Of a stretch of 27,582 nucleotides of DNA, positions 9,886-27,582 are shown piece by piece. Position numbers and translations under genes: made by a program. Origin of the DNA: a virus; IMG/VR virus record IMGVR_UViG_3300022591_000528, positions 1 through 27,582 of that record; one strand, written 5' to 3'. The notes below the pieces were generated by a model. It was not told where the DNA came from. It did no database searches and worked only from the letters and a program-made list of their open reading frames with translations. Position 1 is the stretch's first letter, and each line of letters starts with the position of its first letter.

Positions 9886-10261
9886 ACTATTCAATTTAAC
9901 TCTAAGTTACTTGTTAGTATGCCCTAGCAATCATGTAAATGAACAATTTCAAACCATACTAAGCCATAGCATTGATGACTTAAATGTGTTCATTTATGGT
10001 AATCAAGAAGATGATGTTAGTTGGCTATTAAGTGTTGCTCAACAGGTCGATTGTGTAATTATTGACGTAGACAACTGCGATATAACAACCAAACAGTTTG
10101 TCACATTTATGTTAGCACAGCCTAACGTACACTATATAACTAACGACGAAATTACTCCATATAATTTGATAAGTAAAAATCGTATATACGATTTGGATTG
10201 GATAGTCGACCAAATCAAAGAACAAGAAGACGAAGAGGATAGTGATGAATCAGAAGAGTAG
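9845..10261 (+). CDS. Unknown phage protein with acidic tail
   Basis: This 138-residue protein starts at the ATG at 9845 (a TTG-started reading from 9797 adds 16 residues of unconvincing sequence that overlap the frameshifted tail of the previous gene). It has an alternating alpha/beta pattern: a MNLGKITVITPPDKLF strand, a CVIIDVDNCD strand in the middle, LAQPNVHYITND, and an extremely acidic C terminus (EDEEDSDESEE). The pattern is like a small Rossmann-type fold, but no motif is recognised. An AGGG lies about 13 nt from the start inside the previous frame. Its 3' end overlaps the bS21 gene by 17 nt. Confidence 0.55.
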   Translation: MNLGKITVITPPDKLFNLTLSYLLVCPSNHVNEQFQTILSHSIDDLNVFIYGNQEDDVSWLLSVAQQVDCVIIDVDNCDITTKQFVTFMLAQPNVHYITNDEITPYNLISKNRIYDLDWIVDQIKEQEDEEDSDESEE

Positions 10262-10475
10262 AGGAACGGGTATTACCGTCCGTGACGGTGAGAATATTAA
10301 CCAAAGTTTACGCCGATTTAAACGTAAAATGGAAGAAGCTGGAACTTTGGATACACTCCGTGCTAAAGAGTTCTATGAGAAACCAACTACCGAACGCAAG
10401 CGTAAGAAAGGTGCCGCAAAAGCACGTTGGCGCAAGAAACTACAAAAAGAAAGCCTACCACCCAAATTGTATTGA
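10245..10475 (+). CDS. rpsU: Phage-encoded ribosomal protein bS21
   Basis: This 76-residue protein matches bacterial S21: GITVRDGENINQSLRRFKRK, then KEFYEKPTTERKRKKGAAKA and a basic RWRKKLQKE end. In the small subunit, S21 sits beside the 3' end of 16S rRNA and the anti-Shine-Dalgarno sequence and affects initiation. Phage bS21 genes are known, for example in pelagiphage HTVC008M; the usual proposal is that they favour phage mRNA. The ATG at 10245 is preceded by GAGGA five bases upstream. Here the protein occurs in a genome with many leaderless or weak-SD starts, which may be related. Confidence 0.92.
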   Translation: MNQKSRGTGITVRDGENINQSLRRFKRKMEEAGTLDTLRAKEFYEKPTTERKRKKGAAKARWRKKLQKESLPPKLY

Positions 10476-10500
10476 CATTAGTATATAGGCCAGTTAAAAT
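10472..10500 (+). promoter_or_regulatory. Sigma70-type promoter giving a leaderless mRNA
   Basis: TTGACA (10472-10477), a 17-bp spacer and TAAAAT (10495-10500) lie directly before the homing endonuclease. Its ATG starts exactly 6 nt after the -10 box with no ribosome-binding site, the same geometry as at 5408, 6181, 11891 and 25252. Confidence 0.8.
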
Positions 10501-10506
10501 ACGCAT

Positions 10507-11883
10507 ATGATTAACTGGCCTGATTATATAAAACTAAAAGAAAACAAATATAGTAAGTGGTACACTGACCTTATAGAAAAAGCCCAGTCTAGAGTATTAC
10601 CTAAAGACGTTTATACTGAGAAACACCACATAATTCCCAAAGCCTGGGGCGGTATAGATAAAAAGATTAACCTTGTTCGATTAACTGCTAGAGAGCACTA
10701 CATGGCTCATGCTTTCTTGTGGAAAATGAGTGTTGGAGAAGGGTTTCATAATAAGATGGTTCATGCATTCAATGCCATGAGTATCATGAAAGACGGATCC
10801 TATAACAAACCTGGTTATAAAATAAACAGCAGACTATTCCAATCTGTAAGATTAGAAAGAATTGCTCATCTAAGAACACTTAAAGGTCCCTTGAGCCCAG
10901 CATACGGAAAGAAACAGAATGTTTCTGAAGAGGGAAAACTTAATAGGAAAAAAGCGCAAGAAGAATTTTGGAATGATCCCGAACGTGTAGCACGTAGAAA
11001 CGAAAATTTACGTAAAGCACAACAAACTCCCGAAGCTATTGCCAAACGCAAAGCATTAGCTGATTCAAAGCGAGGGATTAGACGCGATCCTGCCATTATA
11101 GAAAAGAGCGCATCTAAACGTCGAGGCAAACCGGTCTCTCAACAAGCATTAGAAAATATACGACAGGGAAATAAGAATAGAATTTATTCTCCTGAAGCTA
11201 AAGAAAAAATGAGAGAAGTTGCTCGAATGAACGGAAGCAGACCAAAGTCTGAGGAACATAAAAGAAGAATAGCCGAAAGTAATAAAAAAGTAGATAGATG
11301 GTGGACCAGAGGAGAGAATAATCACAATTACGGTAAAACAATGTTGCCGCATGTAAAAGAAAAATTAAAAGAAGCCAATCAGAACAAGTACAAAGAACGA
11401 AAATCTAAAATGTTTGTTGGGCCTATTAAACCAACAAACACATTTACATTCAGGGGAGTTGTTTATAGAGGTGTTTGCCAGGCATCAAGGCAAACTGGTT
11501 TTTCTCAAAGTCAAATAAAAACACAAGTTAAATATTGGGGAGAAAATCCTGATCAAGAGACAATTAGAAAAATCGATAATAGAGAATTAGAATACCCTAG
11601 AGTAGCACCAAATAAAGGTATTCCTATGAGTGAGGAACAGAAACGTTCTATAAAGGAAACAAAACGTATTAAGTTTGAAAAACTTAGAGAAGCGGGCCTT
11701 CCTAATCCAAACACAGGAAGAAAAGCATCTGAAGAAACTAGAAAAAAAATAGCTGAAAAAGCTAAAGGCAGAAAAGCATCTGAAGAAACTAGAAAAATTT
11801 TATCACAAGCAAGTAAGGGAAAACCAAAGTCTCCAGCGCATATAGAAGCTATAAGATTAGCCAAACTAGCCAAAAAAAGTTAA
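10507..11883 (+). CDS. HNH homing endonuclease with NUMOD3 repeats
   Basis: This 458-residue protein has an N-terminal HNH nuclease site (EKHHIIPKAWGG with H40 and H41, N55 in INLVRL, and H64 and H68 in REHYMAH). It is followed by many basic helical DNA-binding modules of the NUMOD3 kind (GPLSPAYGKK, GENNHNYGKT, SEEHKRRIAES, and three SEETRKK/SPAHIEA-like units at the C terminus) and a NUMOD1-like helix-turn-helix around residues 313-345 (FRGVVYRGVCQASRQTGF). Such enzymes spread themselves by cutting related phage genomes. It is free-standing between bS21 and the DexA-like gene, with its own promoter. The base composition looks more A-rich than its neighbours, fitting a recent arrival. Confidence 0.88.
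   Translation: MINWPDYIKLKENKYSKWYTDLIEKAQSRVLPKDVYTEKHHIIPKAWGGIDKKINLVRLTAREHYMAHAFLWKMSVGEGFHNKMVHAFNAMSIMKDGSYNKPGYKINSRLFQSVRLERIAHLRTLKGPLSPAYGKKQNVSEEGKLNRKKAQEEFWNDPERVARRNENLRKAQQTPEAIAKRKALADSKRGIRRDPAIIEKSASKRRGKPVSQQALENIRQGNKNRIYSPEAKEKMREVARMNGSRPKSEEHKRRIAESNKKVDRWWTRGENNHNYGKTMLPHVKEKLKEANQNKYKERKSKMFVGPIKPTNTFTFRGVVYRGVCQASRQTGFSQSQIKTQVKYWGENPDQETIRKIDNRELEYPRVAPNKGIPMSEEQKRSIKETKRIKFEKLREAGLPNPNTGRKASEETRKKIAEKAKGRKASEETRKILSQASKGKPKSPAHIEAIRLAKLAKKS
11719..11797 (+). repeat. Direct repeat in the NUMOD3 region
   Basis: A sequence of about 28 bp beginning AGAAAAGCATCTGAAG occurs twice with a 51-bp period (from 11719 and from 11770). It encodes two successive RKASEETRK DNA-binding modules and is nearly identical at DNA level, which points to a recent in-gene duplication of 17 codons. 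Confidence 0.8.
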
Positions 11884-12861: not shown

Positions 12862-14763
12862 ATGAGCAAAATCATCGGTATCGATTTAGGTACAACAAAT
12901 AGCTGTGTAGCAATCCTAGAAAACGGAGTTGCTAAAGTAATCGAAAACAGCGAAGGTGCTAGAACAACACCATCAATCATTGCATATACAAAGGACGAGA
13001 TCCTAGTTGGTGCAACAGCAAAACGACAAGCAGTCACAAACCCAAAGAATACAATTTACGCCGCAAAGCGTTTGATCGGACGTAAGTTTGAAGAAAAAGA
13101 AGTCCAAAAGGACATCGATCTAATGCCTTATGCTATTGTTAAGGCAGACAATGGTGACGCTTGGATCGAAGCAAACAATGAAAAACTAGCACCACAACAA
13201 GTGTCAGCTGAAGTGCTACGTAAAATGAAAAAGACAGCTGAAGACTATTTGGGTACAACCGTTACACAAGCAGTTATTACTGTTCCGGCTTACTTCAACG
13301 ACAGTCAACGTCAAGCTACTAAGGACGCAGGTAAGATTGCAGGCCTAGAAGTTCTACGTATTATCAATGAGCCAACAGCGGCCGCACTAGCATATGGTGT
13401 AGACAAGCAGGACAAGAAGGATCGCAAGGTTGCCGTTTATGACTTAGGTGGTGGTACATTTGACGTAAGCATTATTGAAATCGCCAACATCGACGGCGAC
13501 AAGCAAATTGAAGTGTTGTCAACAAACGGCGACACATTCTTGGGCGGTGAAGACTTTGACCAAGCTATCATGGATCACTTGGTAGACGAGTTTAAGAAAG
13601 ACAATGGAATTGATCTTAAGACAGACGTACTAGCACTACAACGTTTGAAAGAAGCCGCAGAAAAAGCTAAGATTGAACTGTCAAGCAGTCAATCAACAAG
13701 TGTTAACTTGCCATATATCACAGCAGATGCAAATGGTCCAAAGCACATGAACGTGACTATCAGCCGTTCTAAGTTTGAACAAATGGTTGAAAAGTTAATC
13801 CAACGTTCAATCGAGCCTTGTAAGACAGCAATGGCAGATGCTAAAGTAACTGCTGAAGACATTGACGAAGTTATCTTAGTTGGCGGTCAAACACGTATGC
13901 CTAAGGTACAAGAAGCAGTTGAAAAATTGTTTGGTAAAACTCCACGTAAGGATGTCAACCCAGACGAAGCAGTTGCCGCAGGTGCCGCAATCCAAGGCGC
14001 TGTTCTAGCAGGCGATAAGACAGACGTATTGTTATTGGACGTAACTCCATTAACTCTAGGTATTGAAACAATGGGCGGTGTGTTTACCAAGTTGATTAGC
14101 AAAAACACAACTATCCCAACCAAGCACTCACAAGTATTCTCAACAGCAGAAGACAACCAACCAGCGGTTACTATTAAAGTAGCACAAGGTGAACGTGATA
14201 TTTTCAAATATAATAAATTGCTTGGCGAGTTTAACTTAGAAGGTATTGCACCAGCAATGCGTGGCATGCCACAAATCGAAGTTACTCTAGACATTGATGC
14301 TAACGGTATCTTGAATGTAAGTGCTAAAGATAAAAATACTGGCAAAGAAAACAAGATCACTATCAAGTCAGATAGCGGATTAACTGATGAAGAAATTCAA
14401 CGTATGGTTCGCGAAGCAGAAGAAAATGCAGAAGCTGATAAGAAAACTAAAGAGTTAATTGAAGCTAAGAATCAAGCTGAAAGCACACGTCACTCATTGA
14501 ATAAAGACTTTGAGGAATTCAAAGAGCAATTATCTGATGATGAAAAGACAGCTTATGAAACAGCCAAAGCAGATTTGGACACAGCAATGACCGGCGATGA
14601 TAAGGAAAAGATCAATGAGGCTTTAACCAAATTGTTTGAAACATCAGCACCGATCACTGCTAAGAGACAAGCCGCTGAACAAGCTAAACAAGCCCAACCA
14701 ACCGAGGGCGAACAAACCGTTAATGCGGAGTTCAAAGAGGTTGATGACACAGACACAAAGTAA
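12862..14763 (+). CDS. dnaK: Hsp70 chaperone DnaK
   Basis: This is a complete 633-residue bacterial-type DnaK. The ATPase domain opens with [17 protein letters not shown] and contains [20 protein letters not shown], the [12 protein letters not shown] phosphate loop, [13 protein letters not shown] and [11 protein letters not shown]. The linker reads [16 protein letters not shown], the substrate domain follows, and the chain ends in an acidic EFKEVDD-type tail. It refolds proteins with DnaJ and GrpE, neither of which is in this window, so it would have to use host or distant phage cochaperones. A full DnaK is rare in phages. A strong AAGGAG site precedes the ATG but is paired in a ROSE-like hairpin. 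Hsp20 and ClpS genes follow. Confidence 0.97.
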
Positions 14764-14769
14764 TATAAT
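14741..14769 (+). promoter_or_regulatory. Probable sigma70 promoter for hsp20
   Basis: TTGATG (14741-14746), a 17-bp spacer and TATAAT (14764-14769) overlap the end of dnaK. The predicted start, about 14776, is one base before the first leader hairpin, so the leader RNA begins at the hairpin foot. Confidence 0.55.
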
Positions 14770-14776
14770 GTAAACA

Positions 14777-14828
14777 TGTAGGGCGCCTATGGTAGGGCCC
14801 TACAAAGTTCTTGCTTAATAAAGGAGAT
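14777..14828 (+). promoter_or_regulatory. Two-hairpin hsp20 leader, ROSE-like RNA thermometer candidate
   Basis: Hairpin 1: TGTAGGGCGCC (14777-14787), loop TATGGTA, GGGCCCTACA (14795-14804), with G14785 bulged at the same place as in the dnaK leader. After 3 nt, hairpin 2: TTCTTGCTT (14808-14816), loop AATA, AAGGAGA (14821-14827), with G14813 bulged; it covers the AGGAG site 7 nt before the hsp20 ATG. Compared with dnaK, one G-T and two A-T pairs of hairpin 1 become G-C pairs, so the structure is kept while the sequence changes. Confidence 0.65.
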
Positions 14829-14833
14829 CTAAA

Positions 14834-15253
14834 ATGACACAACTAAGAACTATTGATGCGGCAGCTCTTGCCGGACTAAACAGAGCACTTGTAGGTTTTG
14901 ACCGTTACTTTGCTAACCAATCAGTTAACAGCAACTATCCTCCACATAACATTGTGAAGTATGCCGATAACCAATATGGGATTGAAGTAGCAGTAGCAGG
15001 ATTTTCTAAAGAGGAAATCACTGTCGAAGTTGACCAAGACCAACTAACAATCACAGGTGTTAAATCACTTGATGTAGGCGATTCAAAAGAATACTTGCAT
15101 CGTGGGTTAGCGGCCCGTGACTTTGAACAAACATTTACTCTTGCCGAGTATATGGAAGTCAAAGGCGCAGAGGTTAAGGATGGTATGCTCAAGATTCAAA
15201 TCGAGCGTATTGTTCCTGATGCACTCAAACCTCGCCAGATTGAAATTAAATAA
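14834..15253 (+). CDS. hsp20: Small heat-shock protein Hsp20 (IbpA-like)
   Basis: This 139-residue alpha-crystallin protein is of the IbpA type: YPPHNIVKYADNQYGIEVAV, then EYLHRGLAARDFEQTFTLAEY and a C-terminal end with PRQIEI, which contains the I-x-I assembly motif. Such proteins hold unfolding proteins for DnaK to refold. Hsp20 genes are common in T4-like cyanophages, but here it follows a phage dnaK. It has its own likely promoter and a two-hairpin leader that masks its ribosome-binding site, as for dnaK, so both could be translated more when temperature rises. Identification is secure. Confidence 0.95.
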   Translation: MTQLRTIDAAALAGLNRALVGFDRYFANQSVNSNYPPHNIVKYADNQYGIEVAVAGFSKEEITVEVDQDQLTITGVKSLDVGDSKEYLHRGLAARDFEQTFTLAEYMEVKGAEVKDGMLKIQIERIVPDALKPRQIEIK

Positions 15254-15254
15254 T

Positions 15255-15285
15255 TGTAAATAAACCCGGGGGAGGCAACTCCCCC
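15255..15285 (+). promoter_or_regulatory. TGTAAATA box and GNRA-loop hairpin before clpS
   Basis: TGTAAATA (15255-15262) resembles the late box with one change and also occurs upstream of csgF and the first curlin gene. Starting 6 nt after it, GGGGGAG (15268-15274), loop GCAA and CTCCCCC (15279-15285) form a perfect 7-bp hairpin. No T-run follows, so it is more likely a 5' stabilising leader hairpin than an intrinsic terminator. Confidence 0.4.
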
Positions 15286-15305
15286 ACTTTAGAAAAGAGA
15301 TAACA

Positions 15306-15608
15306 ATGCCTAGCACCGATATTCAGTTAGATGAAAAGATTAAGATTAAAGTTTCCGAACCAAAGAACTGGAAAGTAATCTTATTGAATGACGACACTAC
15401 TCCTATGGAATTTGTAATTGCAGTTCTTATGGAGATTTTTAAACATAGTCATAATAGTGCTACTGATGTTACTATGCAAGTACACGAAACTGGTAGCGGC
15501 ATTGCTGGTGTGTATAGTTTTGAAATTGCAGAAGCTAAAGCAGTTGAAGCAACACAGACTGCACGTACAAACGGTCATCCGTTACAAATTAAATTGGAAG
15601 AAGAATGA
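15306..15608 (+). CDS. clpS: ClpS-type protease adaptor
   Basis: This 100-residue protein matches ClpS, the adaptor that delivers N-degron proteins to ClpAP/ClpCP. The core motif NWKVILLNDDTTPMEFVIAV contains the Asn-Asp-Asp and Thr/Met residues of the N-degron pocket, VHETGSGIAGVYSFEIAE follows with the pocket His, and the end is NGHPLQIKLEEE as in bacterial ClpS. It could redirect host proteolysis. It overlaps the heme oxygenase gene by ATGA, which makes the two translationally coupled; ClpS is known in plants to help degrade glutamyl-tRNA reductase, so a link to tetrapyrrole control is possible but only inferred. Confidence 0.92.
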   Translation: MPSTDIQLDEKIKIKVSEPKNWKVILLNDDTTPMEFVIAVLMEIFKHSHNSATDVTMQVHETGSGIAGVYSFEIAEAKAVEATQTARTNGHPLQIKLEEE

Positions 15609-16162
15609 GCAATTTACGTGAACTAACCAAAGAAGCACACACAAACGCAGAACGTCAAGAGTTTGTAAAGATTCTATTTTCAGGTTCTATCAATCCACAG
15701 TTATACGCAACATTTTTAAAAAATCAACATCCGCAGTATGAAATTCTAGAAGTATGTGCAATGCCACATGCATTATTAACTGGTCTCCCGGATATCCGCA
15801 GAGCACCAGCAATCTTATCAGATTTCCTCGAACTATGGGGAAATGATAATACCGAACAGCCGCAGATCCTTCCTGTGGTTAATGATTACATTCAACACAT
15901 CCTTAGCATTAAGGACGATCCTAAAAAACTAATGGCTCACTTGTATGTACGCCATATGGGCGACCTAGCTGGCGGACAAATGATTGCTAAGAAAGTACCC
16001 GGCTCAGGTAAGCTATACAAGTTTGAAGATCCAGAAGCACTTAAAGTTGCTATCCGTGAACGCCTAAGCGATGACATGGCAGATGAAGCTAAAATTTGTT
16101 TTGGCTTTGCTACTCGCATGTTTAAAGAGATGATGGAACTAGTAGAGTATAAAGATGAGTAA
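15605..16162 (+). CDS. ho1: Heme oxygenase
   Basis: This 185-residue protein is a heme oxygenase of the biliverdin-forming HO-1 class. The proximal heme His is H12 in ELTKEAHTNAE, and the distal helix reads LYVRHMGDLAGGQMIAKK with D120 and the flexible glycines, followed by GKLYKFED. The reaction opens heme to biliverdin, releasing iron and CO, and needs an electron donor such as ferredoxin. The start is set by the ATGA overlap with clpS. Its stop overlaps the bilin reductase gene by 8 nt, so biliverdin should pass to that enzyme. Paired ho and bilin reductase genes are known from cyanophages and from uncultured non-cyanophage marine viruses. Confidence 0.95.
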   Translation: MSNLRELTKEAHTNAERQEFVKILFSGSINPQLYATFLKNQHPQYEILEVCAMPHALLTGLPDIRRAPAILSDFLELWGNDNTEQPQILPVVNDYIQHILSIKDDPKKLMAHLYVRHMGDLAGGQMIAKKVPGSGKLYKFEDPEALKVAIRERLSDDMADEAKICFGFATRMFKEMMELVEYKDE

Positions 16163-18588: not shown

Positions 18589-19038
18589 ATGACCAAATCA
18601 AGGGCAATATGTTTGTTAGCATTACTGCCACTTTACGTAGTGGCTGCTCCTCTTGCCGACTATACCTTTAAAAGCCCAAGTTTTAATGGTGTAGGCTACA
18701 GCAGTCACGTTTTAACTATTGAAAATCAAGAGTTTACCCGTAAGGCGCAAATACAAAAAGATATACAAGCCGCTCTTGATAAAGCAAAGGCCGATGCGGC
18801 CAATACAAATATTAACAAGTTTTTAAACAACTTGGAATCACGCATTTACGCACAAATTAGTCAAAATTTAGCTACAGCTATGTTTGCTAATGGCGGCAGT
18901 AATTCAGGTACATTAAATTTTGAAGGCAACACTATATTCTGGAGTAAAGACGGAACTAGTGTTACAATGACTGTTACTGATGTTACTGGCAATCAAACAA
19001 CAGTAGTAATTCCACTAAGCCAGTTCCAGTTCCAATAA
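18589..19038 (+). CDS. csgF: Curli assembly protein CsgF
   Basis: This 149-residue protein has a signal peptide (about residues 1-20) followed by YTFKSPSFNGVGY, which matches the CsgF N terminus that plugs the CsgG channel (FRNPNFGG in E. coli). A helical middle with QISQNLATAMF and a C-terminal GTLNFEGNTIFWSKDG / TVTDVTGNQTTVVIPL strand pair complete the family pattern. In curli systems CsgF sits outside the outer membrane and anchors the nucleator. The Asn of the plug constriction is Ser here. A GGGAG ribosome-binding site stands 8 nt before the ATG. csgG follows after one base. Confidence 0.88.
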   Translation: MTKSRAICLLALLPLYVVAAPLADYTFKSPSFNGVGYSSHVLTIENQEFTRKAQIQKDIQAALDKAKADAANTNINKFLNNLESRIYAQISQNLATAMFANGGSNSGTLNFEGNTIFWSKDGTSVTMTVTDVTGNQTTVVIPLSQFQFQ

Positions 19039-19039
19039 A

Positions 19040-20179
19040 ATGAAAAAGACTTTACTAACACTTACACTAGTTACTATGTTAAGTGGATGTGCAGTCATCC
19101 AAAGCACTGGGTTGACTGAAATAGATCCTACTCTTACGGAACAACGCAGGGGTGTTAAAAAAGAGTTTGATACAATACCAGCTCCAGCAGTAGGCAAACC
19201 TATAACTGTAGCAGTATACGGATTTACAGATAAAACAGGACAGCGCCGTCCACAACCAAACGTAGCAAGCCTAAGCACAGCAGTTACGCAAGGTGCTGAA
19301 ACATTTTTAATTCAAGCACTACAAAATGTCGGACATAGTAAATGGTTTGATGTAGTAGAACGTGTAGGTATTGATAACCTGACTAAAGAACGTACTATTA
19401 TTAAACAAATGCGCGAAGCATATGAAGGCCCAAATGCTAAACCATTAATGCCAATGCAGTTTGCTGGTATTATTATGGAAGGTGGTATTGTAGGTTATGA
19501 TGCTACCACTACTAGCGGTGGAGCTGGCATGCGTATTTTTGGCATTGGCAAGCAAACACAATGGTCAACTGATACTGTAACAGTTAGTTTAAGAGCAGTT
19601 AGTGTTAACACAGGTAAAGTATTAGCGGTGGTTACTGTACAGAAAACGATATTAAGTACGGCAGACTCTGCAACAGCATTAAAGTTTTTTGATCAAGGTA
19701 CACAGGCATTTGAAGCAGAAGCAGGGTTAACAATCAATGAACCAGGCACGTATGCTGTCAAGGCAGCTACAGAAATGGCAGTAGTTGAATTGATTAAAGA
19801 AGGACAGCGCAAAGGTATTTGGGAATACAAACTAGAGCCGGTAGTAGTTCCAGTTGCACCTGTTGTTGAAAAGAAAGAATTAGTTATAAGTTCTGAAATT
19901 AAAAAAGAAGAACCTAAAGTAGTAGAAGTGAAGGCAGAGGAACCTAAAGTAGTAGAAGTGAAGACAGAGGAAACACCAATTAAACAGCCGACTGAAGCAA
20001 TACTGTCTGAAGCTCAATTCATTTATAAAGAACCGAATGAAAAGAGTACTAAGACATGGCAGTTTAAAAAGGGCACACTTGTTACCATCATCAGCAGTCA
20101 GGGTGATTGGATAGAAGTGAGAGACGCAGAGAAGCGTAAAGGTTTTGTTAAGAAGGATGTACTTGTTGACAATCAATAA
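19040..20179 (+). CDS. csgG: Curli secretion channel CsgG with SH3-like C-terminal extension
   Basis: This 379-residue lipoprotein has a lipobox (LSGC, C17) and then a full CsgG domain: ITVAVYGFTDKTGQ, a constriction loop region with RRPQPNVASLSTAVTQGAE, SKWFDVVERVGIDNLTKER, GIIMEGGIVGYDA, GAGMRIFGIGKQTQWSTDTV and QKTILS, ending near residue 265. CsgG forms the nine-subunit outer-membrane curli export pore. The E. coli protein stops at 277 residues; here a charged linker with two 10-residue repeats (EEPKVVEVK) leads to an SH3-like domain (about 324-376, FKKGTLVTIISSQGDWIEVR, KGFVKKDVL) that could bind peptidoglycan. E. coli constriction residues Tyr51, Asn55 and Phe56 appear as Gln, Ser and Leu by eye. 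Confidence 0.92.
   Translation: MKKTLLTLTLVTMLSGCAVIQSTGLTEIDPTLTEQRRGVKKEFDTIPAPAVGKPITVAVYGFTDKTGQRRPQPNVASLSTAVTQGAETFLIQALQNVGHSKWFDVVERVGIDNLTKERTIIKQMREAYEGPNAKPLMPMQFAGIIMEGGIVGYDATTTSGGAGMRIFGIGKQTQWSTDTVTVSLRAVSVNTGKVLAVVTVQKTILSTADSATALKFFDQGTQAFEAEAGLTINEPGTYAVKAATEMAVVELIKEGQRKGIWEYKLEPVVVPVAPVVEKKELVISSEIKKEEPKVVEVKAEEPKVVEVKTEETPIKQPTEAILSEAQFIYKEPNEKSTKTWQFKKGTLVTIISSQGDWIEVRDAEKRKGFVKKDVLVDNQ
19911..19970 (+). repeat. 30-bp tandem repeat in the csgG linker
   Basis: Two adjacent 30-bp copies (19911-19940 and 19941-19970) differ at one base and encode EPKVVEVK-type decapeptides in the linker between the CsgG and SH3-like domains. They probably set linker length and can vary by slippage. 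Confidence 0.9.
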
Positions 20180-20353: not shown

Positions 20354-21292
20354 ATGGATAAACGATTGAAAGGCGGTGGTGAGTTGTCGAGAAAATTACT
20401 CACAATTCTGATGTTGGCTGCAATGCCAACATTGGGTTACGCTGTTGATAATAGTATCTACATCGACCAAGCAGGTGATAATGCTGTAATTAATATTACC
20501 CAAGATGGCGCGGGTAATACTGTTAAAGGCATTGTACAAGGTGCACCAGGGCAACGTGGTATTGACGCGGCAACGCTTGTAGGAAATAATGCAAACATTA
20601 ATGTTACCCAAGTTGGTGCGGGGAACACATTGGCATTGGGTGTTAACGCTACTGTAGATTCTGGTAAATCAGCTAACATTAATTATAATGTAACTGGCGA
20701 TAGAAATACTGCATTAATTGATGTTAATGCTGCCGGTACCGGTGTTGCATCAAATATTCAAATTGATGTTACACAGTCAGGCGGTGGTGCAAACTTCAAA
20801 GCTGATGTACAAGGTGTAGGAAATACTATTAGTGTAACTACAGCTGGTGCAAGCGATAATGTACAAAACAAGATCAGAGACAACAACACAAGTGTTAATG
20901 TGTCATTAGCAACAGGTGGCCAGAACGCAGTTGTAACAGATCAAGCTGGCGGTTCTAACACTATTGGTATCAATGCCGATGGTATTGCTAATAAATTCAG
21001 TATTTTACAAAATGGTGCAGGTAACCAAACATCTATAGCAGGTTATAGTTCAGGTGATGCGTTAGTTGGAAACGATAACTCTGTTAAAGTAGTGCAAAAC
21101 GGTTCTGATAACGTGGCAAATATTGGATTAACTGGTAGCAGTAACTGGATCGGTATTAACCAGGGTGCTGGTGGTGGTACTACTAACGAGGCAAATGTAA
21201 AAGTTAGTGGTAACAGCAATACAGTTAATATTAGTCAAGGTGCAGGTGTTCCGTTGTTAACAGCACCAACTGGATTACCGGTGCTTAGATAA
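20354..21292 (+). CDS. Curlin-repeat amyloid protein (CsgA/CsgB-like), first copy
   Basis: This protein of up to 312 residues has a signal peptide (ending near residue 30, after LTILMLAAMPTLGYA) and then irregular curlin repeats of about 22-25 residues, such as IYIDQAGDNAVINITQDGAG, NINVTQVGAGNTL, FSILQNGAGNQTSI, VKVVQNGSDNVANI and VNISQGAG. Gln, Asn and Gly at fixed repeat places are what stack curli amyloid. It would be exported through the CsgG pore encoded upstream. The longest start is the ATG at 20354; a TTG at 20384 behind GGTGGTGAG would still keep the signal peptide. It is larger than E. coli CsgA (about 150 residues). Confidence 0.88.
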   Translation: MDKRLKGGGELSRKLLTILMLAAMPTLGYAVDNSIYIDQAGDNAVINITQDGAGNTVKGIVQGAPGQRGIDAATLVGNNANINVTQVGAGNTLALGVNATVDSGKSANINYNVTGDRNTALIDVNAAGTGVASNIQIDVTQSGGGANFKADVQGVGNTISVTTAGASDNVQNKIRDNNTSVNVSLATGGQNAVVTDQAGGSNTIGINADGIANKFSILQNGAGNQTSIAGYSSGDALVGNDNSVKVVQNGSDNVANIGLTGSSNWIGINQGAGGGTTNEANVKVSGNSNTVNISQGAGVPLLTAPTGLPVLR

Positions 21293-21293
21293 T

Positions 21294-21470
21294 ATGGTAG
21301 ATGCTCGTACACTACACCACATGTACCAAGCATGGATGCAAGGTAATGAAAATTACATCCGTGATTGGTACAGTTTTGTAGAATTTGCGGCACGCCATTG
21401 TAACACTACCGGCGATGAAGTGATGAGAGAACTACAAAAATATTATTGGTTTAAGAAAGGCCACGAATGA
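21294..21470 (+). CDS. Small protein between curlin and FecR genes
   Basis: A 58-residue frame (MVDARTLHHMYQAWMQGNEN at the start, KKGHE at the end) exactly fills the space between the two genes: its ATG lies one base after the curlin stop (TAATATG) and its TGA overlaps the FecR-gene ATG as ATGA. It is hydrophilic and helical with many aromatic and His residues, and has no signal peptide, so it probably stays in the cytoplasm. The product is not recognised, but the perfect junctions on both sides argue that it is a real gene. Confidence 0.6.
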   Translation: MVDARTLHHMYQAWMQGNENYIRDWYSFVEFAARHCNTTGDEVMRELQKYYWFKKGHE

Positions 21471-22597
21471 ACATATGGCATGTTATACCGACGACAATAT
21501 TGCTGAGTATATCAGGGCTATGTTACTCTGCAATAGGAACCGTAACGGAACAGATCAATACCCCGCCATCCATACAACGGAAGGCACAGACTCTGACTGG
21601 CGCAAAAGGCACAGGCGTAGAGATGAACGACGCCGTAAGGACAGCACAGGGTAAAGTAGGTATTACGTTTGAAGATAATACTAAAGTACAAGTAAATGAA
21701 AACAGTAAACTAGTCATTGACGACTTTGTTTACGATCCTAAAAAAGGATCTGGCAAACTAGCACTTAATATGGCTATGGGCACGGTTCGCTATGCTAGCG
21801 GCCAAATTGCTAAAAACAATCCACAAAGTGTAGGTATCAATACTCCTAGTGCTACTGTTAGTGTGCGTGGTACAGACTTTACTGCTACTGTAGATGAATT
21901 AGGTCGCAGTACATTTATTTTGCTACCTAGTTGTCCAAGTGATCGTATGACTAGAACTGTTAGTGATATTGAATCAAATTGTAAGACTGGAGAAATTGTT
22001 GTTGGAAACGATGCTGGGTTTGTTATACTTAATCAGCCATTCCAAGCAACCAAGGTAGACAGCAGAGGTAGCCCACCAAGTGCTCCGGCTATTTTAAAAC
22101 TTAGTGAGGGTGCTATTAACAATATGTTAATTGTTGTACCTCCTAAAGAATTAAATCAGCAAGCAGAAAAAACTAGTGTGAAACTTGAAATGAAAACAGC
22201 ACTAGATATGGACTTCTTAAAAGAACAAGGGCTTGCTAATGCCTTAGATGAACAGCAAAAAGAAATGTATCAAGATAAATTAGCACGTAACTTTCTTGAT
22301 CAAAATTTTCTTGCAAATATTTTAGATATCATTGATAGTATGATGAAAGCACAAATGAATCTATTAAACACAACTAGCAACAAACTATTGCCAGACTATA
22401 ATGCTCTCACAGGTATAACTGTAGATATACAAGAACCAAAAATAACATTAGCTAGAGACGATGGTAGTAATGTAATGAGTGTAACAGTACCTACTAGTCA
22501 AAATACAACAATGTATATGACACAAGGTGCAATGGATACTATTAAGAATCGTATTAACAGCGGAGGGTCAACGGTTATTACGTTGATACAAAGATAA
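21467..22597 (+). CDS. Exported FecR-domain protein
   Basis: This 376-residue protein has a signal peptide (about residues 1-22) and a FecR domain: AQTLTGAKGTGVEMNDAVRT, VGITFEDNTKVQVNENSKLV, then MAMGTVRYASG and INTPSATVSVRGTDFTATVDE (to about residue 145). The C-terminal two thirds are helical (ALDMDFLKEQGLANALDEQ and DIIDSMMKAQMN) with no known motif. FecR-domain proteins without a membrane sensor part are often found beside curli-like or surface-protein genes and CHASE2 cyclases in proteobacteria. It overlaps the small upstream gene as ATGA and the next curlin gene as TAATG. It probably acts in the periplasm or at the surface; its partner is unknown. Confidence 0.82.
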   Translation: MNIWHVIPTTILLSISGLCYSAIGTVTEQINTPPSIQRKAQTLTGAKGTGVEMNDAVRTAQGKVGITFEDNTKVQVNENSKLVIDDFVYDPKKGSGKLALNMAMGTVRYASGQIAKNNPQSVGINTPSATVSVRGTDFTATVDELGRSTFILLPSCPSDRMTRTVSDIESNCKTGEIVVGNDAGFVILNQPFQATKVDSRGSPPSAPAILKLSEGAINNMLIVVPPKELNQQAEKTSVKLEMKTALDMDFLKEQGLANALDEQQKEMYQDKLARNFLDQNFLANILDIIDSMMKAQMNLLNTTSNKLLPDYNALTGITVDIQEPKITLARDDGSNVMSVTVPTSQNTTMYMTQGAMDTIKNRINSGGSTVITLIQR

Positions 22598-23193
22598 TGG
22601 AACGTGCAATAATTATTGCTACAATGGTTTTCTTAGTTGCTGGATTAGGGCAATGTAATAAATCCCATGCCGCTGACAATACAATCGTAATTGATCAGAT
22701 AGGCACAGGAAATCAAACAACTGTAACACAAGACGGTACTGGACATAGTGCTACTATTACTGCTGGTTACGGTATCTCAGTCGACTATAATGTGTTTGCT
22801 ATTACACAACAAGGTGCGGCAAAGACAGCTACAATAGAACTTAAATCTGGTATCAATAATACATTTAATATACAGCAAGATGGCACAGGAAATCATACTG
22901 CCGCAATACAAAATATGATCGGCTCTGGAAACAATGTTAATATATCACAAAGCGGCGCAGGCAACCATACACTTAATGTTACTAATCCGTGGAATGCTAC
23001 AAATAATGGTAATACTGTAACTGCTACCCAAAGCGGCGGAGTCGGTGCAGATAAACGATTTGATTTAATGTTTAGTGGTGCTACGGGTGCAGGTGTTACT
23101 ATTAATCAAACAAATCCAACAACTCCAGATCAAGCTGGTATGAATATCCAGTGTAATCCATGCGGTTCTGGTTGGTCTTACACCAAATTTTAA
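22597..23193 (+). CDS. Curlin-repeat amyloid protein, second copy
   Basis: This 198-residue protein has a signal peptide (about residues 1-25, ending SHAA) and curlin-type repeats: IVIDQIGTGNQTTVTQDGTG, FAITQQGAAKTATI, FNIQQDGTGNHTAAI, VNISQSGAGNHTLNV and a final VTINQTNP. The C terminus ends in CNPCGSGWSYTKF, a Cys pair and aromatic cap absent from the first copy, which might mark it as the nucleator (CsgB role) or the fibre end; this is inference. Its ATG overlaps the FecR gene stop by one base (TAATG), with no ribosome-binding site. Confidence 0.85.
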   Translation: MERAIIIATMVFLVAGLGQCNKSHAADNTIVIDQIGTGNQTTVTQDGTGHSATITAGYGISVDYNVFAITQQGAAKTATIELKSGINNTFNIQQDGTGNHTAAIQNMIGSGNNVNISQSGAGNHTLNVTNPWNATNNGNTVTATQSGGVGADKRFDLMFSGATGAGVTINQTNPTTPDQAGMNIQCNPCGSGWSYTKF

Positions 23194-23207: not shown

Positions 23208-25250
23208 ATGATAAAAAAGATCCTTTTGAGCCCGTGGACTGCTCTATTGACCTTAGTGTTAATAGTGGGCATACGTGTTGCAGACCCCTCATTTGTCGAA
23301 AGTGTAAGATTACGATATTTTGACACACTAATCACTAGCAAAGCACCTACAGAAAATAACATCTATACAGTAAACATAGATGAAGCTAGCTTAGACAAAT
23401 ACGGCCAGTGGCCACTACCAAGAGCTCAATATGCAAAAATTATTCAAGATCTTTATGCTCGTCACGCTGGCCTTGTTGTGCTCAACGTGCTCATGGCTGA
23501 GCCTGATCGCACTGGTGGAGATGCAGTACTTTCTGCCACTCTTAAAAATTATCCAGTAATACTTGGAAGTGTTCCAAGTGCAAAAACTAAAAATACACCC
23601 CGTGTTCCAGGTAGTGCAGTTTTAGGTCCAGAGTACTTAGATCAAATTGTTACATACCCAGGGTTAATTGCCAACGTGCCTGCATTAGAAAACAATGCCT
23701 ATGGAGTTGGTATTGTAAACACACTACCAGAAGTAGATGGAGTTAATCGTCGTATACCTTTAATTGTTACAGTTGAGGGAAAACTATATCCAGGTCTAGC
23801 AATGGAAACATTACGTGCTGCCGCAGGAGATACTACTTTCCAAGTAAAGTTGTTTGAGGGTGGGGTTGAAAAGATGCGTATTCCTAAGTTTGGGCCTGTA
23901 ACAACAGATAACTTAGGTCGCGTGTGGGTTGATTGGAGTCAGCAAAGTAAATCAGTATCACTAACAGATTTACCTAAAGACTTTGGCGGAGCAATCGTAA
24001 TTGTAGGACCAACTGCCGCAGGTATTGGAAATCCTGTACCAACAAGCAAAGGTGCAGTTTGGCCGCATGAAGTACAAGCCAGTGTAGTTGCTACAATGGC
24101 AAACGGTGTTACCATCCAACGTCCAGATTGGGCAGATGGTGCTGAAATTCTTGCCTTGGTAGTATTAGGCATAGCTTTACTATTTTTAACAAGGTGGACT
24201 TATGTTGGACTTTCTAGTGGCGTTATCGCTCTTGGTATTTTGTACCCTATATCTCACTATGTTTACGAGACTAATCTTTGGCTTGTTGACATTACCTCTC
24301 TTGCTGTGGGTATTACTCTTATTTTGCTTCATGCTTACGGGATTAAGTTTGTAAGTGAATTCTTACAGAAACAAGCTATTAAGAAACAGTTTGCTGGTTA
24401 CTGCTCTAAGGAAGTTGTAGAGCTACTACAAAAAGATCCAGACCTAATCAAGCGCGGTGTACGTAAAGACGTATCAGTTATGTTCAGTGACCTACGTGGC
24501 TTTACACCTATTGGCGAACACTATGGTGATGACGTGGCTGGCCTAGGCAAATACATGAACGGCTACATGGATGCTATTAGCCAACCAATGTTAGACAACA
24601 AAGGTATGGTTATCAAGTATGTAGGCGATGCGTCAATGCACATACACGGCGCTCCTATTGAAGATCCTAACCATGCTCATACTATTGTTAAAGTAGGTTT
24701 AGAGATGTTGGATAAAGTAGACGAGTATACTAAACTAATGGAAGCACAAGGTTTACCACCAGCGGCAATGGGTTGGGGTTGTAACTCGGGTATTGGCTTT
24801 ATTGGTGAGATGGGTTCAACAGAACGACACAGCTATGACATCTTAGGTGATATGGTTTCAACTGCCGCTCGTTTAGAAGCACGTTGTAAAGCATATGGTG
24901 TGTTATGTATTATTGGTGCTGAAACATACAATAGAACTAAAGATGACTTCTGTTACTTGTATTTGGATAACTTACAACCAAAAGGTAAAACTGTAGCAGA
25001 TGCTATCTATACAGCGTTGCGTACAAAAGGTGCAGACTATTCCGCAGACATTGGCTTGCATAACATGATGCATGATTTATATAAAGCAAAAGAGTTCGAT
25101 AATGCGGCCGCTATGTGTGCAAAGCTAAAAGGTAACTTTGGCGGACAAATGGACAAATACTACAAGATGTGGATCGAACGTTGTGAGTTCATGAAACAGC
25201 AAGACCTACCGGAGAATTGGAATGGTGAATTTGTGGCCCATGAGAAATAA
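23208..25250 (+). CDS. CHASE2-domain class III adenylate/guanylate cyclase
   Basis: Starting at the ATG at 23208, the first after the second curlin gene, the protein has 680 residues. An N-terminal span (about 5-20) leads into a CHASE2 sensor domain (YTVNIDEASLDKYGQWPLPR; VVLNVLMAEPDR; up to about 300), three more spans (about 307-385) and a class III cyclase domain. Metal-binding D428 (FSDLRGFT) and D474 (VGDA), purine-site K470 and D544, and R555 are present. The transition-state Asn expected before the Arg is Ser551 (GDMVSTAARLE). K470 and D544 favour ATP as substrate. The sensor faces the periplasm, next to the curli products; a cyclic-nucleotide enzyme in a phage is very unusual. Confidence 0.88.
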   Translation: MIKKILLSPWTALLTLVLIVGIRVADPSFVESVRLRYFDTLITSKAPTENNIYTVNIDEASLDKYGQWPLPRAQYAKIIQDLYARHAGLVVLNVLMAEPDRTGGDAVLSATLKNYPVILGSVPSAKTKNTPRVPGSAVLGPEYLDQIVTYPGLIANVPALENNAYGVGIVNTLPEVDGVNRRIPLIVTVEGKLYPGLAMETLRAAAGDTTFQVKLFEGGVEKMRIPKFGPVTTDNLGRVWVDWSQQSKSVSLTDLPKDFGGAIVIVGPTAAGIGNPVPTSKGAVWPHEVQASVVATMANGVTIQRPDWADGAEILALVVLGIALLFLTRWTYVGLSSGVIALGILYPISHYVYETNLWLVDITSLAVGITLILLHAYGIKFVSEFLQKQAIKKQFAGYCSKEVVELLQKDPDLIKRGVRKDVSVMFSDLRGFTPIGEHYGDDVAGLGKYMNGYMDAISQPMLDNKGMVIKYVGDASMHIHGAPIEDPNHAHTIVKVGLEMLDKVDEYTKLMEAQGLPPAAMGWGCNSGIGFIGEMGSTERHSYDILGDMVSTAARLEARCKAYGVLCIIGAETYNRTKDDFCYLYLDNLQPKGKTVADAIYTALRTKGADYSADIGLHNMMHDLYKAKEFDNAAAMCAKLKGNFGGQMDKYYKMWIERCEFMKQQDLPENWNGEFVAHEK

Positions 25251-25251
25251 C

Positions 25252-25280
25252 TTTACAGAGTTATTTGCAGAGTGTATACT
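25252..25280 (+). promoter_or_regulatory. Sigma70-type promoter giving a leaderless mRNA
   Basis: TTTACA (25252-25257), a 17-bp spacer and TATACT (25275-25280) are one mismatch each from consensus. The ATG at 25287 begins exactly 6 nt after the -10 box, the fifth case of this geometry, and this fixes the start of the next gene. Confidence 0.75.
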
Positions 25281-25286
25281 AGACAG

Positions 25287-26021
25287 ATGCGTAGAATCTT
25301 ATCTTTATTGGTACTTCTTACCTTTTTATATAATGGGCAAGCAATCGCCTCCACTACCAAACCTTTGTCTATCACCGCTTCGAGCTGGCTCGTGGCTGAC
25401 GGCGAAGGTAAAATAATACAGGGCGAAAATACTCAGCAACAACGTAGTATTGCTAGTATTACTAAGTTAATGACTGTTATGGTTGTGCTTGACGCACATC
25501 AAGAATTAGATCAACAGCTTAGACAATTTACTCGCCGAGAATTAATACAACTAGCATTGGTTAAATCTGATAACAAAGCCGCAATCGAATTATGCGACAA
25601 CTACCCTGACGGGAAAGATCATTGTATCCGTGCTATGAATGAAAAAGCTCGCAGTTTAGGATTAACACAAACAAAGTATGTTGAGGCAAGCGGCCTTAGT
25701 GTGTTTAATGTTAGTAACGCTGAAGAACTAATTAAGATTGTTATAGCGGCAAGCGGCTACGAAGAAATCGTACAAGCAAGTCGTTCAAGCCAAGTTAAGA
25801 TTAGAAACAAAAAGAAGTGGTTTATCTTTAATAATACAAACCCTATCATAGGCAAGCGTCATGAGTTTGTTGTAAGTAAAACAGGCTATATTAGAGCAAG
25901 TGGCGGCTGTATTGTTATGATGCTTGATACAGATATTGGCCGCCGTATTGTTGTAGTGCTTGGCAGTAAGAACACGCATACACGTATTCCCGAAGCAGAG
26001 TTTATTGCTAAGAGTTTCTAA
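25287..26021 (+). CDS. S11-family penicillin-binding endopeptidase (PbpG-like)
   Basis: This 244-residue protein has a signal peptide (about residues 1-21) and the three active-site motifs of S11 D-Ala-D-Ala peptidases: SITK (S57, K60), SDN (S94-N96) and KTG (198-200). The short length, without the C-terminal anchor domain of PBP5-type enzymes, fits PbpG/PBP7-type endopeptidases that cut peptidoglycan cross-links. In a phage it could loosen the wall for lysis, for entry or for passage of the curli channel. It starts on a predicted leaderless mRNA. Its 3' end overlaps the minus-strand desaturase gene by 14 bp, tail to tail. Confidence 0.9.
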   Translation: MRRILSLLVLLTFLYNGQAIASTTKPLSITASSWLVADGEGKIIQGENTQQQRSIASITKLMTVMVVLDAHQELDQQLRQFTRRELIQLALVKSDNKAAIELCDNYPDGKDHCIRAMNEKARSLGLTQTKYVEASGLSVFNVSNAEELIKIVIAASGYEEIVQASRSSQVKIRNKKKWFIFNNTNPIIGKRHEFVVSKTGYIRASGGCIVMMLDTDIGRRIVVVLGSKNTHTRIPEAEFIAKSF

Positions 26022-26712
26022 CTTTAGCAAGTCCAACAAATTCAAATATTTTAAACCACATCCAACCGCCGTCAAACTCGAACCATCGACGACTTAGTTT
26101 AGGATTTGCCGGATCTAAGTGATGGTTATTGTGTAGTTCTTCACCGCCAATTAATATACCCCATGGACTAACATTGCGACTATGGTCCTTGGTCTCGCCA
26201 TTGCGATATCCCCACCAATGTCCTATGCCGTTAATGAATCCAGCGGCCCAGAATGGAATCCATATCATCTGTACACCCCACACTAGAAAACCCCACGGCC
26301 CAAATAACAACAGGTCTATAACCAACATTACAAGAATGCCGTGGCGGTGATATCTAGTGTAGAAAACTTCAATACGATCCTTAGGCGTGCCGGCACCATA
26401 TTTAATGACCATATTAGGATCTTTAGTTGCTTCATGGTACAAACTCCAGCCGCCTAATAATAGTCTCTTAATGCCAAATACGTGTGGACTATGCGGATCA
26501 CCTTCTACGTCTGTATTTTGATGATGTTTACGGTGAACTGCTACCCATGCTTTAGTAGTCATCCCAGTAGTCATCCATAACCAAAATCTCATAAAGTGAC
26601 TTAATATAGGGTGAAATTCAATACCACGATGAGCTTGGCATCTATGCAAATATAGTGTAACACAAACTATTGTAATGTGCGTCATTAATAACGTAGATAG
26701 GATTATATTCAT
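26008..26712 (-). CDS. Membrane fatty-acid (acyl-CoA/acyl-lipid) desaturase
   Basis: This 234-residue membrane protein has the three His boxes of delta-9-type desaturases: HRCQAH (residues 23-28), HRKHH (about 60-64) and HNNHH (about 196-200), with hydrophobic spans between them. It would insert a double bond into host acyl chains and so change membrane fluidity. It is short for the family (usual about 280-320), with a reduced N terminus. A late box (GATAAATA on this strand) ends exactly 7 nt before its ATG, so the mRNA is almost leaderless. A glycosyltransferase gene lies upstream on the same strand. Confidence 0.92.
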   Translation of the reverse strand: MNIILSTLLMTHITIVCVTLYLHRCQAHRGIEFHPILSHFMRFWLWMTTGMTTKAWVAVHRKHHQNTDVEGDPHSPHVFGIKRLLLGGWSLYHEATKDPNMVIKYGAGTPKDRIEVFYTRYHRHGILVMLVIDLLLFGPWGFLVWGVQMIWIPFWAAGFINGIGHWWGYRNGETKDHSRNVSPWGILIGGEELHNNHHLDPANPKLSRRWFEFDGGWMWFKIFEFVGLAKVRNS

Positions 26713-26761: not shown

Positions 26762-27582
26762 TTATCTTGTACCCGATTTTATTAAATTATTTTTAAAGAT
26801 TTCCCAAGCATTTTCCCAAGTCCAACGCTGACTGCCTTCCCATACTTTCTTACGATCTAGCATTAGTGTGTCTTTAACTGCTTGTTTCAAATCGTCATTC
26901 ATGCAACCTGTAATTCCTTCATCAATAACATCTTCTGGCCCTTGACACGGATACGCCGCTACAGGAGTACCGCAGGCCATTGCTTCTATCATAACAATGC
27001 CAAATGTTTCCCAACGACTTGGAAACACAAACACATCTGCTAATCGATAGTAATCGGCAAGATCTTTACCTGTTTTAAATCCTACAAATTCCACAGTTGG
27101 ATATTTTTTCTTATAAGTTTCTAGCATAGGGCCGTCACCTACCATAATTTTACGAGCGCCTGTATATTCTAGTTCAAAGAACGCTTCTAAATTCTTTTCT
27201 TTAGATACACGACTAACGCATACAAGGATGGGCCTAATACTGTTATTGCGGCTACTAGGATAAAATATATCACGGTCAACGCCGCGACTCCATGGGATAA
27301 CATCTCCGTCAAACCCATGATCTTTTAACTCCTTAACCATGCTGTCTGTAGTTGTTAGAACTTTGCCACTATGCTTATGAAACCAGCGTACAAAGCGCCA
27401 AGTGATAGACTCAGGTATTCCAAATAGTTTCTTAAGTCCTTCTGGAAACTTAGTATGATAAGCGGTATTGTGAGGAATACCAGCCAATGAAAGATATGCT
27501 CTAGCCCACAGACCAAGAGGACCCTCTGTGGCGATATGGATATAATCCGGAGATATCTCCTCAATCTTCTTGCCCAAGTTCC
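26762..27582 (-). CDS. Family 4 glycosyltransferase, N terminus outside the window
   Basis: At least 272 residues are visible; the frame is open to the window edge. The visible part resembles GT4 enzymes of the lipid-linked mannosyl/sulfoquinovosyl group: ATEGPLGLWARAYLSLAGIP, YHTKFPEGLKK, VIPWSRGVDRDIFYP, then the nucleotide-sugar site with FVFPSRWETFGIVMIEAMACG containing the E-x7-E pair, and GPEDVIDEG. It would transfer a sugar from a nucleotide donor to a lipid or surface glycan. Beside the desaturase it suggests envelope lipid changes. No sensible start lies within the window (a TTG at 27577 is internal), so the protein is truncated by the edge, not broken. Confidence 0.88.
   Translation of the reverse strand, partial: NLGKKIEEISPDYIHIATEGPLGLWARAYLSLAGIPHNTAYHTKFPEGLKKLFGIPESITWRFVRWFHKHSGKVLTTTDSMVKELKDHGFDGDVIPWSRGVDRDIFYPSSRNNSIRPILVCVSRVSKEKNLEAFFELEYTGARKIMVGDGPMLETYKKKYPTVEFVGFKTGKDLADYYRLADVFVFPSRWETFGIVMIEAMACGTPVAAYPCQGPEDVIDEGITGCMNDDLKQAVKDTLMLDRKKVWEGSQRWTWENAWEIFKNNLIKSGTR

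Follow-up and report, generated by a model that had tools for sequence, protein, structure and literature searches.

Can a phage-borne receptor cyclase that lacks the canonical transition-state asparagine of class III still be a working enzyme, and how did its unusual active site arise? The question is raised by the last gene of a curli-type cassette on a virus contig of 27,582 bases from the IMG/VR database (the window). Translation of this gene yields a protein of 680 amino acids (Table 1); a longer in-frame reading from an alternative start at 23160 would overlap csgB. The original prediction described a complete CHASE2 sensor joined to a cyclase domain with Asp428, Lys470, Asp474, Asp544, Ser551 and Arg555, and it is confirmed by Pfam for the domains and by our residue check for every one of these positions. 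The CHASE2 match spans positions 2–256 of the 257 in the profile. Sequence and fold both identify a class III cyclase with the two metal-binding aspartates (D428 and D474) and R555 in place, whereas the position of the canonical transition-state asparagine is occupied by S551. Lys470 and Asp544 form the textbook ATP-type pair. The protein matches PHROG 35576 over its full length (E 2e-191), a family catalogued with unknown function that receives its name from the CHASE2 and cyclase domain match. Several relatives of the gene are located on far larger contigs of up to 364 kb.

Table 1 Features of the curli/FecR/cyclase cassette in the window.
Feature	Coordinates	Strand	Evidence
csgF-like, type VIII secretion chaperone	18589..19038	+	Pfam CsgF E 3e-13
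csgG-like outer-membrane pore, C-terminal SH3-like domain	19040..20179	+	Pfam CsgG E 2e-48
Curlin-repeat protein, csgA/B-like	20354..21292	+	Pfam Curlin_rpt E 8e-5
FecR-domain protein, putative signal peptide	21467..22597	+	Pfam FecR E 5e-11
Second curlin-repeat protein, csgA/B-like	22597..23193	+	Pfam Curlin_rpt E 1e-9
CHASE2 receptor-type class III nucleotidyl cyclase, 680 aa	23208..25250	+	Pfam, residue check, AlphaFold model
CHASE2 sensor domain, residues 15–322	23250..24173	+	Pfam E 2e-40
Class III catalytic domain, residues 420–590	24465..24977	+	Pfam Guanylate_cyc E 5e-14; structural match
Metal ligand Asp428 codon	24489..24491	+	
Lys470 to Asp474 codons (base contact and second metal ligand)	24615..24629	+	
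Asp544 codon (base-specifying position)	24837..24839	+	
Ser551 codon, TCA, replacing the transition-state Asn	24858..24860	+	
Arg555 codon (transition-state Arg)	24870..24872	+	

An AlphaFold model (mean pLDDT 86.6), for which 46 viral sequences served as input, begins with an N-terminal helix, followed by the CHASE2 core, by three long helices (residues 309–329, 331–356 and 363–395), by the class III fold and by a helical C-terminal extension; it thereby shows a whole CHASE2 domain together with its membrane helices. Its catalytic part aligns with OaPAC, P. aeruginosa CyaB and CyaC at Z scores of about 20–21 (Foldseek and VIA). Residues 535–545, which form the loop before the helix bearing S551 and R555, fall below a pLDDT of 50; we therefore take the model as support for the fold only and do not interpret the geometry of Ser551.

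As had also been predicted, the cyclase gene follows curli genes: it ends a same-strand run encoding CsgF, CsgG, a curlin-repeat protein, FecR and a second curlin-repeat protein (Pfam), with fecR one gene away. The start of the second curlin-repeat gene overlaps the fecR stop, and its product is CsgB-like by NCBIfam, below the cut-off. Curli (type VIII secretion system, T8SS) cassettes have been described in pelagiphages and in the methylophage Melnitz (PMC9599517, 2022; PMC7029224, 2020; PMC9004378, 2022). Both the cassette csgF-csgG-csgA-fecR-csgB-cyclase and its gene order are already published for pelagiphages (Wittmers 2022; PMC9599517), as are the curli pore genes of Melnitz (PMC9004378). 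Melnitz and HTVC008M share the gene order of the window. The Melnitz cyclase, 45% identical to that of the window over 99% of the length, also has Asp544/Ser551, whereas the HTVC008M cyclase has Ser544/Asn551. The text of the 2022 survey (PMC9599517) contains neither "CHASE2" nor "active site", and we found neither the active-site split and its trajectory nor the sensor swapping described below in Wittmers 2022. Sequence comparison thus assigns the locus to a clade of viral CHASE2 receptor cyclases whose active site is unusual and strictly conserved, within a cassette that had been published before. The association is general among long loci, with fecR near the cyclase in 93/94 Ser-type and 16/16 Asn-type cases and csgG in 90/94 and 15/16, respectively. 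Inverted or separated cassettes occur in some phages, but these too remain close to the cyclase.

Several further features of these neighborhoods were recorded. The CsgG protein of the window, with 379 aa compared to about 280 in Melnitz and HTVC008M, carries an SH3_4 domain at residues 325–375. Two small membrane proteins of ~92–112 aa are encoded near the cyclase in 89/94 Ser-type and 15/16 Asn-type long loci (for example, L006 11649–11984 and 12311–12592, both minus strand, where the pair has no Pfam match, and L244 2001–2279 and 2659–2946); they may correspond to the "histidine kinase" named before csgF in PMC9599517, for which they seem far too short. Directly 3' of the cyclase in the window lies a Peptidase S11 (D-Ala-D-Ala carboxypeptidase) gene (25272–26021, plus strand), a relative of which follows the cyclase in 38/148 Ser-type and 0/68 Asn-type loci. 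Next to it are genes for a DesA-like desaturase and a GT4 glycosyltransferase (26008–26712 and 26762–27580, both minus strand), the latter most similar, below cut-offs, to GlcN-phosphatidylglycerol and monoglucosyl-diacylglycerol synthases. Relatives carry a similar lipid-type gene set (L006 5369–7993, plus, and 10027–10737, minus; L048 6080–7990, plus) in which the glycosyltransferase is closely preceded by an LpxH-like metallophosphoesterase, and together these genes could form a phage PlcP/Agt-type set for phosphate-sparing lipid remodeling. Upstream, DnaK-, Hsp20-, ClpS- and haem-oxygenase-like genes stand in a row (12862–16162, plus strand; identified by eye), a chaperone set unusual for a phage.

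Is Ser551 a genuine feature of the enzyme? Together with D428, K470, D544 and R555, it occurs in 81/81 close relatives (the window's own copy included), and D474 is found in 80, with one gap. A viral survey of 356 loci yielded 258 distinct proteins, comprising 138 with Asp544/Ser551, 98 with Ser544/Asn551 and 22 with Thr544/Asn551, so that Ser551 is present in 138/138 distinct proteins of the Asp544 type. A sequencing error or private mutation, the caveat attached to the original prediction, is thereby rejected. The residue is encoded by AGY codons in 75 and by TCN codons in 64 of 139 Ser-type proteins, and the codon class changes ~31 times on the protein tree (shuffled mean 46) while the residue itself stays constant; exact change counts, here and below, are approximate, as several trees were built with quick settings and gave long-branch warnings. 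Such repeated moves between AGY and TCN without a change of residue indicate that Ser551 is selected as serine. In six pairs, dN/dS amounted to 0.03–0.05 for the catalytic domain and 0.11–0.16 for the sensor, so that constraint within the protein is strongest in its catalytic half. Based on codon-class switching and low dN/dS, we regard the cyclase as functional and reject decay as an explanation of Ser551.

The Asp/Ser type forms a single clade (support 99/98). A protein with Asp544/Asn551 (L452) is sister to all Ser forms (support 100/100), and one with Thr544/Asn551 (L332) branches outside both (support 98/96). Because these Thr/Asn and Asp/Asn stages survive, the likely order of change is Thr/Asn to Asp/Asn to Asp/Ser, with Asp544 acquired first and Ser551 second. 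Two pattern scans across all viral contigs revealed 11 Asp/Asn cases, all within the CHASE2 cyclase family; the idea that Asp544 and Ser551 always occur together is thus rejected. Apart from L452 there is another Asp/Asn clade, with nine rows. The reverse combination, Ser or Thr at 544 with Ser551, was absent from all viral contigs in the pattern scan, which did not cover AGY serine codons at 544. A long branch (0.68–0.78) leads to the Ser clade, in which many catalytic-domain changes are fixed relative to Asn-type relatives (e.g., E534, D544, S551, T552, H478 and H480).

We searched two bacterial phyla, Pseudomonadota and Planctomycetota, for the Ser form. The best 29 Pseudomonadota relatives all have Ser or Thr at 544 with Asn551. 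When 398 Pseudomonadota genomes were scanned with a DNA pattern specifying Ser or Thr at 551, it matched two contigs of one bin (G001) and four Thr cases, and the Ser form was thus found only on phage-like contigs of that one bin; as a control, the Asn version of the pattern matched 67/120 genomes. Planctomycetota CHASE2 cyclases comprised 18 of the Thr/Asn type and one of the Asp/Ser type, the latter in the bin of L246. Scanning genomes with the Ser-type domain yielded three matches (L244, L245 and L246, with L245 in the same bin as L244). The surroundings of two of them were read: L244 and L246, which belong to a Rhodobacteraceae and a Pirellulales genome bin, are phage-like contigs that carry the same curli cassette as in phages. 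They are probably phage contigs mis-binned into bacterial genomes, and we do not count the Ser type as bacterial. As far as the trees and these searches indicate, the Ser clade arose once, inside viruses. Another natural variant was seen in four Pseudomonadota cyclases (L311, L312, L313 and L314) with Thr at the position of the transition-state asparagine (YTC[IV]GD[ST]VTLAARLE). Our literature search yielded neither a natural Asn-to-Ser variant, which does not prove absence, nor a case in which Ser had been tested at this position.

The sensor has a different history. Ser-type catalytic domains are 79–89% identical to each other, while their sensor halves drop to 29–35% identity. Viral sensors fall into three groups; the Ser type occurs on all three and the Asn types on two. 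On the catalytic tree the Ser type is a single clade, but on the sensor tree it requires seven or more changes, even with the count restricted to well-supported branches. This comparison indicates that the sensor and output halves were swapped several times.

Two characterized systems help to interpret the protein. In S. meliloti, the receptor cyclases CyaD1, CyaD2 and CyaK work via the cAMP receptor Clr, CyaD1 without its CHASE2 domain produces cAMP constitutively, and both Clr and the FecR-domain protein SMc02177 are encoded close to CyaD1 (PMC5498481). CyaD1 resembles the window protein in combining CHASE2 with a cyclase domain and in the nearby FecR-domain gene, but it is bacterial and has its receptor encoded beside it; the S. 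meliloti proteins were outside our alignment. More broadly, fecR directly adjoins a CHASE2 cyclase gene in 6/20 cellular regions fetched, which, with SMc02177, bears out the predicted bacterial neighborhood of the two genes, and in phages such a pair seems to have been combined with curli genes. The second system, Ma1120 of M. avium, naturally carries Ala at the Asn site, retains the Lys/Asp base residues and the Arg, and is proven active; restoring Asn lowered its cAMP production and abolished its cGMP production (PMC4215837). It thus shares with the window protein the Lys/Asp pair, the kept Arg and the missing transition-state Asn, but it has Ala instead of Ser, and there is no sign of a trait shared by descent. 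Since Ma1120 is active with Ala, the transition-state Asn is usual but not defining for class III cyclases, and since its restoration lowered activity there, S551N would be an unsafe positive control.

Taken together, we consider it probable that this phage gene specifies a catalytically active receptor cyclase, which senses the state of the envelope and alters the host's cyclic nucleotide, with Ser551 as a functional replacement of Asn and not a loss. CHASE2, which Pfam and the model show between one N-terminal and about three later membrane helices, would be periplasmic. By analogy with S. meliloti CyaD1, the sensor would probably keep the catalytic dimer restrained as long as no envelope signal is received. 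An envelope change, most plausibly tied to the FecR and curli proteins of the cassette, would then release the cytoplasmic, homodimeric class III domain. FecR as the input is weakened as an idea by the finding that SMc02177 is dispensable for signal perception in S. meliloti (PMC5498481). The released domain would produce a cyclic nucleotide; given the ATP-type Lys470/Asp544 pair, ATP is the expected substrate and cAMP the probable product. A CRP-type cNMP_binding domain (PF00027) had no match in 14 large virus records, Melnitz and HTVC008M, with the window contig, a fragment, outside the search; PF00027 matched 10/14 control genomes. With no phage receptor found, the signal would act through a host protein, presumably CRP-like. 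Ser551 would have been fixed once in the viral clade, after Ser/Thr544 had become Asp.

The strongest competitor, which we regard as unlikely, is that the Asp544/Ser551 pocket mainly produces cGMP or a pyrimidine cyclic nucleotide, or has relaxed its base choice, so that the phage would gain a signal that host enzymes do not make. The long branch of the Ser clade and its many fixed catalytic-domain changes are in line with such a shift, and one or two pocket residues can move class III specificity (PMC4215837). On the other side, the phages searched contained no matching receptor. The Lys470/Asp544 pair also points to ATP.

It is more doubtful still that the protein, nearly or wholly inactive as an enzyme, senses and signals by changing shape or binding a partner. 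The asparagine that normally takes part in transition-state binding is indeed absent, but pseudo-enzymes often lose their metal ligands, whereas here both metal aspartates are kept along with Lys, Asp and Arg. Constraint is moreover strongest in the catalytic half, and Ma1120 is active with Ala at the same site. The original prediction had offered reduced, retuned or silent activity. The kept catalytic residues, the low dN/dS and the persistence of Ser across codon switches speak against the reduced and silent forms, and "retuned" is the better of its options. That the cyclase is a mere passenger, brought along when the curli cassette recombines and without a role in infection, is very improbable: cassettes and domains do move between phages (sensor and catalytic trees; PMC9599517), but the gene is under strong purifying selection, conserves a single residue across codon classes and is retained near inverted or split cassettes.

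Whatever its product, the preferred reading of an active receptor cyclase concerns a widespread viral enzyme family with a living series from Thr/Asn through Asp/Asn to Asp/Ser, so that the role of the "essential" Asn and the order of changes are directly testable with natural proteins. The family is also an example of phages shuffling the sensor and output parts of a signaling protein. Envelope-based phage control of host second messengers has been little studied, and the family links a signaling protein of this kind to the curli cassette of phages. We tentatively raise one further idea, to which we give a low probability: the clade may represent a distinct class III site, so far virus-only, that was built in at least two ordered steps, operates on at least three CHASE2 sensors, and differs from host enzymes in kinetics or base choice. 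If so, the envelope state and curli program of the infected cell would run on a private, phage-controlled signal.
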